From Candidatus Eisenbacteria bacterium (lineage in GTDB: Bacteria; Eisenbacteria; RBG-16-71-46; JASEGR01), in contig JASEGR010000031.1 in the NCBI GenBank assembly GCA_030017955.1, positions 1-33,312 of the forward strand: a stretch of DNA of 33,312 bases. Direction: 5' to 3'. A program made the position numbers and the translations under genes. Below are positions 7,253-26,581 of this stretch, piece after piece. Each line of letters opens with the position of its first letter. Position 1 is the first letter of the stretch. The notes beneath the pieces are model-generated. The model saw nothing but the letters and a program-made list of their open reading frames with translations. It was not told the origin of the DNA and did not search any database.

Positions 7253-7426
7253 GCGGTGGCGATGAGCCGTGAGCTGGCTTTCGCGGGAGGGATGGGGAAC
7301 CCGTCTTGGCGAGCAAGGTGGGGATACCCAGCCCTTTAGAGGCTGGGAGGGGTAAGGACTCCCCGCCTGGCGAGCCCTAGATGGGTCATCCCGGAGCGGA
7401 GACGGCAAACGCTCATCGCCCACCGC
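7253..7426 (+). ncRNA. structured element A, putative novel ncRNA (paired with element B)
   Basis: This 174-base intergenic element is closed by a 15-bp inverted repeat (7253-7267 with 7411-7426, one bulged C). Inside are a hairpin 7267-7272/7281-7286, a helix GGGATG 7289-7294 with CATCCC 7387-7392, a 9-bp stem 7316-7324/7360-7368, an extra hairpin CCCAGCC 7327-7333/GGCTGGG 7341-7347, and CCCTAGATGGG at 7375-7385. The core matches element B at 26439-26581, while the paired strands differ compensatorily. T-G pairs occur in the hairpin and the 9-bp stem when read on the plus strand; they would be A-C mismatches on the minus strand. No family is recognised with certainty; a stand-alone HEARO/omega-type RNA is one possibility. 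Bases 7151-7252 and 7427-7460 show nothing else. Confidence 0.65.
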
Positions 7427-16631: not shown

Positions 16632-19109
16632 ATGCCAAAGGGAGGCCAAAAAACAGCGGCTGAACCCCGGGAAGTCATCGAGATTCCGGCGGAGCTTCCT
16701 GCTCTTCCTGTCACGGATACCGTTGTATTCCCGTACATGATGCTCCCGCTTGTCATAAGTGACAAGAAGCTCGTCAGAATGGCGGATGAGAGTCTTGCCA
16801 CAAACAAGATCATAGCCATATTTGCGAGAAAATACCCGGAGGGAGAGGAACCTGCCGCCGAAGACCTTTATTCAGTAGGAACTGCCTCGACGATCCTGAA
16901 GATGCTGAGATTTCCGGATAACTCGATGAGGCTCCTTGTCCAGGGTATTGGCAGGGTGAAGCTTGAAAGCGTCGTGCAGACCGAACCCTATCTCAAGGTG
17001 CGGCTTTCGGCCATTACCGAGGACAATAGAAAAACCGAAGAGACAAGCGCTCTCATGAAGAACGTCACAAACCTGTTCCAGAAACTTGTGGAATCGGTCT
17101 CTTATCTTCCTGAAGAGCTCAAAGTCCTTTCGATGAATATTGAAGAGCCGGGAAGACTCGCAGATATCGTTGCATCGAATCTCAATGTCGAGGTCGCCAG
17201 AAAGCAGGAAATTCTGGAGACAGTTGACGCGAAAGAGAGACTCCAGAAAGTTGCTGTTATCCTGGCAAGAGAGCTCGAGCTCCTCGAAATCGGCCAGAAG
17301 ATTCAATCCGACGTCAAGACTGAAATGGACAGAGGGCAAAGGGAGTACTACCTGAGGCAGCAGCTCAAGGCAATTCAGAAAGAGCTCGGCGAGGTTGATG
17401 AGAGGACGCAGGAGGCAGACGAGCTGAGAGAAAAGATCAAGAAAGCTCAGATGCCTCACGAAGCAGAGGAAGCTGCGCTCAAAGAGGTCGAGAGACTGTC
17501 CAAGATGGCCGTTGCCGCAGCCGAGTACACCGTATCAAGAACCTACCTCGACTGGCTCGTCAGCCTGCCGTGGAGTGTGTCCAGCGGCGAGGAGATAAAT
17601 GTTGGTGAGGCGGCTAAGATTCTCGAAGAGGATCACCACGATCTTGAAAAGGTGAAAGAAAGAATCCTCGAATACCTGGCGGTAAGGAAGCTGAAAAAGA
17701 ACCCCAAAGGCCCGATTCTCTGCCTTGTCGGTCCGCCCGGAGTCGGTAAGACCTCGCTTGGAATGTCGATCGCGAGAGCCCTGGGAAGGAAGTTCGTGAG
17801 GATGTCTCTTGGAGGAATGAGAGATGAAGCAGAGATAAGAGGACACAGGCGAACCTACATCGGCGCTCTGCCGGGAAGAATTATTCAGGGAATGCGGAAG
17901 GCGGAATCGAACAATCCGGTTTTCATGCTGGATGAGGTTGACAAAATCGGAGCGGACTTCAGGGGCGACCCGGCCGCTGCACTGCTTGAGGTCCTTGACC
18001 CGGAGCAGAACTTCTCATTTTCCGATCACTACCTGAGTGTCGCCTTCGATCTTTCCAAAGTTGTTTTCATAACCACAGCTAATCTGCTTGACCCGATTCC
18101 CACCGTCTTGAGGGACAGGATGGAAGTGCTTGAGCTTCCCGGTTACACAAGGGAAGAGAAGCTCATCATCGCAAAGAAGTACCTCGTCCCACGGCAGTAC
18201 GAGGAGAACGGCATCAGCCAGGAGTCTCTTGTTTTCAAGGACGATGCGGTAAGGGAAATTATCTCAAACTACACCATGGAAGCAGGCGTGAGAAATCTTG
18301 AGCGGGAGATTGCAACGGTCTGCCGGAAAGTGGCAAGGCAGATTGCGGAGGGAAAGGATACAAGCGTCAGCCTCACGGCAAAGAATCTGTCTGATTTCCT
18401 GGGTCCGGAGAAGTTTTTCTCCGAGATTGCCCAGAGGAACGATGAAGTTGGTGTGGCGACCGGCCTTGCCTGGACGGCGATGGGCGGCGAAATCATGTTT
18501 GTCGAAGCTCAGAAGATGAAAGGTGGAAAATCACTTTCGCTTACCGGCAACCTTGGCGAGGTCATGAAGGAATCCGCACAGGCGGCGCTGAGCTATGTCA
18601 GGTCGCTTTCGAAAGAACTTGGAGTGAAGGAAAATTTCTTTGATGCAACCGACATTCATATTCATGTGCCTGCCGGCTCAATCCCGAAGGACGGGCCTTC
18701 GGCAGGCGTTGCCATGGTCACATGCCTTGCCTCGCTTGTCACCGGGATCCCGGTGAAACACGATGTTGCGATGACTGGAGAAATCACGTTGAGAGGAAGG
18801 GTGCTTCCGATCGGTGGTGTGAGGCAAAAAGTTCTTGCCGCACATAGAGCCGGAATCAAGACAGTTGTTCTGCCAAGAAAAAACGAAAAGGACCTGGTTG
18901 AAGTTCCGGAAGAAGTAAGAAAAGAGATCAAGTTTGTCTTCGTCGAAAGAATTGATGAAATGCTTAGCGCTACTCTTTCGTCTCCAGTGCTCAAGCCAAC
19001 TGAGGCGGCAGTTTCGCGCGATAGGGCTCCGTCCCGTGGAGTTGCCCAGGCTCTAAGAACATCGCCAGATGTTAAGAAACAGCACTCCCGGGCCCGCAAG
19101 AACACATAG
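16632..19109 (+). CDS. lon: ATP-dependent protease Lon
   Basis: An 825-residue full-length LonA protease that degrades misfolded and regulatory proteins. It has an N-terminal LON substrate domain (about 25-220), a coiled-coil helical region (about 225-300), and an AAA+ module with Walker A GPPGVGKT (367-374) and Walker B region FMLDEVDKIG. The protease domain carries the catalytic Ser690 in KDGPSAGVAM and Lys733 in RQKVLAA, the expected 43 residues apart. The last 40 residues are basic and poorly conserved. GGAGG lies about a dozen bases before the ATG. The 115-base gap after Hsp20 has no obvious terminator, so the two genes may be cotranscribed. Confidence 0.97.
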   Translation: MPKGGQKTAAEPREVIEIPAELPALPVTDTVVFPYMMLPLVISDKKLVRMADESLATNKIIAIFARKYPEGEEPAAEDLYSVGTASTILKMLRFPDNSMRLLVQGIGRVKLESVVQTEPYLKVRLSAITEDNRKTEETSALMKNVTNLFQKLVESVSYLPEELKVLSMNIEEPGRLADIVASNLNVEVARKQEILETVDAKERLQKVAVILARELELLEIGQKIQSDVKTEMDRGQREYYLRQQLKAIQKELGEVDERTQEADELREKIKKAQMPHEAEEAALKEVERLSKMAVAAAEYTVSRTYLDWLVSLPWSVSSGEEINVGEAAKILEEDHHDLEKVKERILEYLAVRKLKKNPKGPILCLVGPPGVGKTSLGMSIARALGRKFVRMSLGGMRDEAEIRGHRRTYIGALPGRIIQGMRKAESNNPVFMLDEVDKIGADFRGDPAAALLEVLDPEQNFSFSDHYLSVAFDLSKVVFITTANLLDPIPTVLRDRMEVLELPGYTREEKLIIAKKYLVPRQYEENGISQESLVFKDDAVREIISNYTMEAGVRNLEREIATVCRKVARQIAEGKDTSVSLTAKNLSDFLGPEKFFSEIAQRNDEVGVATGLAWTAMGGEIMFVEAQKMKGGKSLSLTGNLGEVMKESAQAALSYVRSLSKELGVKENFFDATDIHIHVPAGSIPKDGPSAGVAMVTCLASLVTGIPVKHDVAMTGEITLRGRVLPIGGVRQKVLAAHRAGIKTVVLPRKNEKDLVEVPEEVRKEIKFVFVERIDEMLSATLSSPVLKPTEAAVSRDRAPSRGVAQALRTSPDVKKQHSRARKNT

Positions 19110-26438: not shown

Positions 26439-26581
26439 GTGGGATCCTGGTGCCTGAGCGTAACTCACCGGGAGCAGTGGGCCACCCACCTTGGGTGAGC
26501 AGGCAGGGGAAAGGTATTCCCCGCCTGCGAACCCTAGTTGGGTCACTGCGGAGGTGGTGAAGCGAAGGTACCAGGTCCCAC
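26439..26581 (+). ncRNA. structured element B, putative novel ncRNA (paired with element A)
   Basis: This 143-base intergenic element is closed by a terminal stem of 15 pairs (26439-26454 with 26567-26581, one bulged T and one G-T pair). Internal helices are TGAG/CTCA (26455-26458 with 26464-26467), GCAGTG/CACTGC (26474-26479 with 26544-26549) and a 12-bp stem with one bulged A (26499-26511 with 26517-26528, loop AGGTA). Conserved single-stranded blocks shared with element A include GGGAG, CTTGG, CCCTAG-TTGGGTCA and CGGAGG-GG-GA. The G-T pair supports plus-strand RNA. A weak promoter-like TTGAGC-17-AACACT (26400-26428) would start transcription almost at the stem. Confidence 0.65.

Follow-up and report, generated by a model that had tools for sequence, protein, structure and literature searches.

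Dispersed hairpin elements of a Candidatus Eisenbacteria genome share a covarying core with MITE-like elements of other phyla

The window analysed here, a stretch of 33,312 nucleotides (nt) from a Candidatus Eisenbacteria bacterium (contig JASEGR010000031.1), contains two hairpin elements, here referred to as element A (positions 7253 to 7426) and element B (26439 to 26581). Both are read on the plus strand and lie in gaps flanked by minus-strand genes. Element A was delineated by its fold, its blastn copies and a covariance model. It consists of a conserved structured core (7270 to 7409), which is supported by covariation counts and is also present across phyla, and of a terminal stem formed by a 5' arm (7253 to 7267) that varies among copies with pairing kept and a 3' arm (7410 to 7426) placed by fold and copy comparison. 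Element B is a diverged relative of A, recognized by its fold, the covariance model and the identities within the core; its arms (26439 to 26454 and 26567 to 26581), predicted from the fold, enclose a conserved core with a shortened tip (26455 to 26566), delimited by fold and cross-lineage comparison. An earlier reading of the bare sequence, here called the original prediction, had placed both elements, their stems and the minus-strand genes around them correctly, and the helix swap that it described, from GGGATG/CATCCC in A to GCAGTG/CACTGC in B, is present.

Element A folds from end to end with a predicted energy of -106.8 kcal/mol (z = -7.6), which was equalled by 0 of 200 shuffled sequences, and element B with -92.8 kcal/mol (z = -8.3). 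In both, the core is a long hairpin interrupted by G-A-rich internal loops, with a length of approximately 110 nt in B and 140 nt in A. By itself, blastn revealed no link between the two elements; a covariance model for which only A copies were used recovered B across all 171 positions at 72.4 bits (E = 1.2e-13), and we confirm that A and B are homologous, strongly covarying hairpins. The B core shares 62% identity with that of A, 71 to 81% with cores from other phyla and 56 to 61% with the AT-rich variants of one family (f305). In being nearer to cores from other phyla than to that of A, the B core shows what separate arrivals would lead one to expect, and A and B look like elements that reached this genome independently.

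In the 3.1-Mb genome to which the window belongs (G000; in what follows, L and C numbers denote the loci and contigs read), blastn placed A at 27 sites, A itself included. Twenty-three of these are full copies, most of them 87 to 94% identical, and a model of the 23 finds the same copies again plus B. A-type copies are about 170 nt long (170 to 173 nt), contain no open reading frame (ORF) and differ in length by single bases, which argues against a shared reading frame. They are dispersed, intergenic, found in both orientations and adjoin housekeeping genes with no relation to one another, among them rho, ligA, priA, purB and ftsW. When the element is read as plus, the two neighbouring genes are both on the minus strand for 12 copies, both on the plus strand for 9, convergent for 3 and divergent for 2, in a tally made by eye. 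With neighbours this unrelated, cis-regulation of a common pathway is rejected. The view that A and B are not cis-leaders of the adjoining genes is upheld. The stop codon of a neighbouring gene is found near most copies in this genome, and neither a promoter-like site nor a terminator-like site (a stem followed by a T run) was found at A.

Several other repeats were observed alongside the A copies. A second dispersed repeat, R2, is about 172 nt long, occurs at approximately 35 places in the genome and likewise forms a long hairpin (for example, L074:1501-1623 on the minus strand and L096:499-684). Its tip hairpin changes with compensation (GTCC/GGAC, GGCC/GGCC, GACC/GGTC and GGGC/GCCC), and one R2 copy carries a 67-nt insertion precisely at the tip. 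Some A copies adjoin R2 or lie inside it, the copy on contig C63 (L007) being located within an R2 hairpin. On the same contig, a gene for a radical SAM/SPASM protein (C63:1687-3504) lies between two inverted A copies (L007 and L008) in an arrangement resembling a composite unit. Three A copies (L014, L024 and L026) have an additional tip hairpin, CCCAGGCT/AGCCTGGG or CCCGTTGC/GCAATGGG, which is compensated between copies. Other short palindromic repeats beside A copies, containing AATAGGTGACTGTCACTATTTT and TGATGTGTCC, are similar to repetitive extragenic palindromes and were seen in the flanks of L015 and L024 and of L002 and L008.

The pairing of the core is conserved well beyond what controls produce. 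Among 25 sequences from the window's genome, 96.1% of the cells in paired columns were paired and 23 pairs had changed on both sides, compared with 4.8 ± 1.6 pairs in shuffled controls and 5 to 11 when the partner column was slid. Across lineages (17 sequences), 87.1% of the cells were paired, and two-sided changes were seen in 37 of 57 pairs (169 cells); this alignment was fitted to the model and is biased toward it, and the controls, computed on the same alignment, gave 24.8 pairs and 49 cells for shuffles and at most 18 pairs and 57 cells for slid partners. The lack of further copies with compensatory changes had been named at the outset as a possible refutation; the opposite was found, and such copies exist. 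While the interior of the A copies is conserved, the outer stem differs from copy to copy and yet pairs, as in the arms GAAGGGAATGAGC/GCTCATTCCCTTC, ACAGTGATGA/TCATCACTGT and TCTCGGGGCAGTGAGCC/GGCTCATTGCTCCGAGA. When arms were swapped between copies, no permutation out of 20,000 equalled the real pairing, and for the stretch beyond GGCGA just one in 20,000 did.

The folded plus strand is favoured over the minus strand. Full copies score 110 to 199 bits on the plus strand and 19 to 50 bits on the minus strand under the covariance model, and among single changes G-U outnumbers A-C, at 26 versus 15 pair-sites in the A copies and 19 versus 11 in copies from a sister genus; the corresponding cell counts for the A copies (104 versus 18) are inflated by columns in which U-G is the norm. 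The proposal of a plus-strand RNA thus gains support from the model scores and the G-U excess, which fall short of proof. Folding one trimmed copy with DNA energies gave weak values (z = -2.6 for plus and -0.8 for minus) that are too uninformative to part RNA from DNA.

The core was absent from the other 46 genomes of the window's phylum that were searched. Outside the phylum, as judged by the kinship labels attached to the genomes, the covariance model found relatives in G217 (82 bits) and G400 (110 bits). After inclusion of these sequences, the model identified the core in 16 of 295 genomes from 8 genera and 7 families. Many of these genomes have more than one copy, with up to at least 9 matches per genome among 9 candidates scored in each; since few candidates per genome are scored once a search covers more than 40 genomes, copy numbers are lower bounds. 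With the window's genome counted, the core is found in a patchy set of 17 genomes from 8 families. Its most diverged forms are the AT-rich variants of family f305, which are multicopy and keep the core motifs but have mostly rewritten helices and reach only 36 to 46 bits. Copies in G400 (L125:1437-1690 and L127) carry an insertion of approximately 68 nt in the 5' internal loop. A DNA-pattern search of 84,980 genomes returned no match; a second pattern gave four betaproteobacterial matches without covariance-model support, which we attribute to chance. Most patterns tried on IMG/VR found nothing, another gave four matches in one phage gene that the model does not support, and phage and plasmid collections yielded no match.

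In three other lineages, the core lies within elements of approximately 189 to 267 nt that resemble miniature inverted-repeat transposable elements (MITEs) and are bounded by inverted termini; their target-site duplications measure 9, 8 or 5 bp. In the genus of G462 and G497, the elements end in GGA[C/G]TTTCC, these ends being separated by two bases from a surrounding duplication of about 9 bp, and when the register was fixed, a repeat of at least 8 bp was present in 10 of 14 copies compared with 9 of 182 swapped pairs. The elements of G456 start with GTAAT.CCTCAG and end with CTGAGGCATTAC; among five copies, one exact 8-bp repeat, TATTGAGG, was found by script and a second, CTCCACCC in L278, was read by eye, the script having placed that end one base short. 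Elements of f305 begin with GAGACCTTTGCA or a variant of it and end with CAAAGCTCTC, and exact 5-bp repeats flank 6 of 9. The central result of this work, and the most surprising one, is that a single core goes together with three types of ends and with duplications of three lengths. Since the termini differ between lineages, the core seems to be common to elements that are probably moved by different transposases.

The sister species G462 and G497 are approximately 96% identical at common loci, and their comparison indicates that the element is mobile in these better-sampled relatives. Nine copies in G462 offered five well-comparable sites, of which two are common to G497. A block of about 235 nt with AAGG flanks occupies one G462 site that is empty in G497, and at another compared site G497 is without the core. 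At one site, the core has the opposite orientation in the two species (L166:4999-5169 in G462 and L192 near position 19081 in G497), as though it had turned around between the arms. In L162, the G462 copy lies inside a CACCGCAAAGGCGCAAAG inverted repeat. A separate MITE in G462 (L163:5564-5718), with GTTTCCATCCG ends and a TAGTTA duplication, also corresponds to an empty site in G497 (L176). Unlike in the window's genome, the 23 G497 copies (in L178 to L277) for which both neighbours were called include 9 with divergent and 0 with convergent flanking genes; a replication-strand bias of the G497 copies was not significant (p = 0.18).

Taken together, we consider it probable that A and B are copies of a protein-less, dispersed mobile element whose core functions, as a folded plus strand, for the element itself. 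Such an element would consist of a conserved core between two inverted arms, which differ between lineages and partly between copies, and A and B would have spread as in the other lineages, by movement in trans of a non-autonomous element. When folded, the plus strand of the core might aid spread or render insertions harmless. It is most likely that the core benefits the element either as read-through RNA, transcribed from nearby promoters and without service to a single neighbouring gene, or as a single-stranded DNA hairpin. We further consider, as a rather unlikely speculation, that the core is a mobile RNA module in itself that was captured by, or invaded, unrelated transposon backbones, served by different transposases, in several phyla because the folded RNA aids movement or survival; it may, for example, recruit a widespread host protein or steer insertion. 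Several points weigh against the proposed mobile element. A scan of the window's genome found A copies without a target-site duplication, an excess of direct repeats or a fixed outer boundary, and because of the missing duplications, we infer the mobility of A and B from homology and dispersal. No autonomous partner with the same ends was found in the 2.08 Mb (80%) of G497 that were read, the 8-bp duplication class rests on two of five copies, and single-stranded DNA could account for the same covariation and strand bias.

It is conceivable that the core is itself the mobile unit and inserts into the middle of palindromes already present, such as MITEs, other repeats or hairpins, so that the arms are host palindromes; this would account for the constant pairing of the arms, for their lack of relationship from one lineage to another and for the absence of a duplication at the core. 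The arms do pair copy by copy, unique flanks included, the termini are unlike between lineages, and the L007 copy inside an R2 hairpin and the L162 copy inside an inverted repeat are what such lodging would produce. However, within a lineage the core and arms travel as a fixed unit with the duplications outside the arms, no palindrome was proven to occur both with the core and free of it at the same position, and we know of no insertion mechanism for such a core; hence we regard this explanation as unlikely. Palindromes also underlie the idea that the fold is a by-product of DNA inverted repeats, arising through cruciforms or through palindrome correction by template switching, a known process, without a folded single strand being under selection. 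The outer arms do resemble near-perfect palindromes, but internal loops and U-G pairs persist from phylum to phylum even though helices have undergone two-sided changes, and the plus strand scores far above the minus. Palindrome correction is rejected as the cause of arm pairing since it would erase the kept loops and U-G pairs, and we give the by-product idea hardly any credence.

A host-serving element, kept for its effect on the stability or processing of host mRNAs, would fit the nearby stop codons and the finding that ERIC and BOX repeats act on, or arise in, co-transcripts (PMC2229807, PMC3049150). Given that copies occur in both orientations beside unrelated genes, that A has no terminator-like site and that the G497 copies favour divergent over convergent neighbours, such a role seems improbable. 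Still less do we favour a stand-alone gene for a trans-acting or guide RNA of the HEARO/omega or bridge RNA type with its protein encoded elsewhere, even if the G-A-rich internal loops and the cross-phylum covariation are reminiscent of protein-binding RNA. Rfam has no match, no nuclease was found among the scanned neighbours, and the ends form a closed, freely varying stem with no unpaired guide in the predicted fold. The trans-acting gene put forward originally is also at odds with the lack of a promoter-like site at A and with the dispersal of some 25 copies, in either orientation, next to genes unrelated to each other.

The element is real and, as originally proposed, a novel covarying structure; it has an unexpected shared core and would add a structured class that is missing from Rfam. 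Its dispersed, MITE-like nature was not part of the original prediction, which had no view of the further A copies elsewhere in the genome. Bacterial MITEs are commonly regarded as degraded insertion sequences that are recognized by their termini. In the present case it is the centre that phyla have in common, conserved down to individual pairs, and the ends that vary. This suggests that small mobile repeats can carry an RNA or DNA-hairpin part that is selected in its own right, and covariance models as well as pairs of filled and empty sites now exist for testing this idea.

With regard to known structured RNAs, a comparison with Rfam by curated thresholds and E-value gave nothing credible for A and one sub-threshold match for B. 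HEARO, the omega RNA of IscB, is a structured RNA linked to mobile elements, with many copies lacking an ORF, and in these respects it is similar to A and B. The two elements differ from it in their long, closed terminal stem; moreover, the HEARO model had no match in A or B at an E value of up to 10 and none in five other loci at up to 0.01, and no HNH or RuvC nuclease, TnpB or IscB was found among 30 neighbouring proteins of the window's genome, nor an HNH or RuvC nuclease among 6 elsewhere, so the suggested HEARO/omega type is not borne out. Element B aligns across the whole model of the Clostridiales-1 RNA (RF01699; PMC2864571) and has a G-A-rich internal loop motif in common with it, but the score of 24 bits is half the curated cut-off of 48 bits and rules out membership; this model had no match in A or the other-phylum cores tested and was not found in a search of the window's genome.

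Among insertion sequences, the GTAA...TTAC ends and 8-bp duplication of the G456 elements follow the rule of the IS66 family; these elements alone share both features, have no transposase inside and show the repeat in two of five copies. One IS110-like transposase fragment, seen by eye beside the G400 copy L125 and without a Pfam hit, was taken as chance, and no IS110 recombinase, such as would adjoin a bridge RNA, was found among the remaining scanned neighbours. In the window's genome as in others, the element is short, lacks a transposase gene and is present in dispersed copies, as is typical of MITEs. The ERIC/RU-1, Correia/NEMIS and RUP elements (PMC2229807; reviewed in PMC10969869) are likewise short and protein-less, with many intergenic copies beside unrelated genes, inverted termini, a long stem-loop and target-site duplications, the last seen here in the related lineages. 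Each of them is bound to one lineage and known by its ends; in contrast, the core described here covaries across phyla while ends and duplication lengths differ, and a word search of the review for phyla, covariation or a conserved core came back empty. The pneumococcal BOX repeats (PMC3049150) are similarly dispersed, tightly folded, modular and present in transcripts, but have a boxA-B-C build within streptococci. The ERIC, NEMIS, RUP and BOX repeats, all short, folded, intergenic and passively moved, are thus closest in kind to A and B, which differ from BOX in having one core that is combined with different ends in many families.
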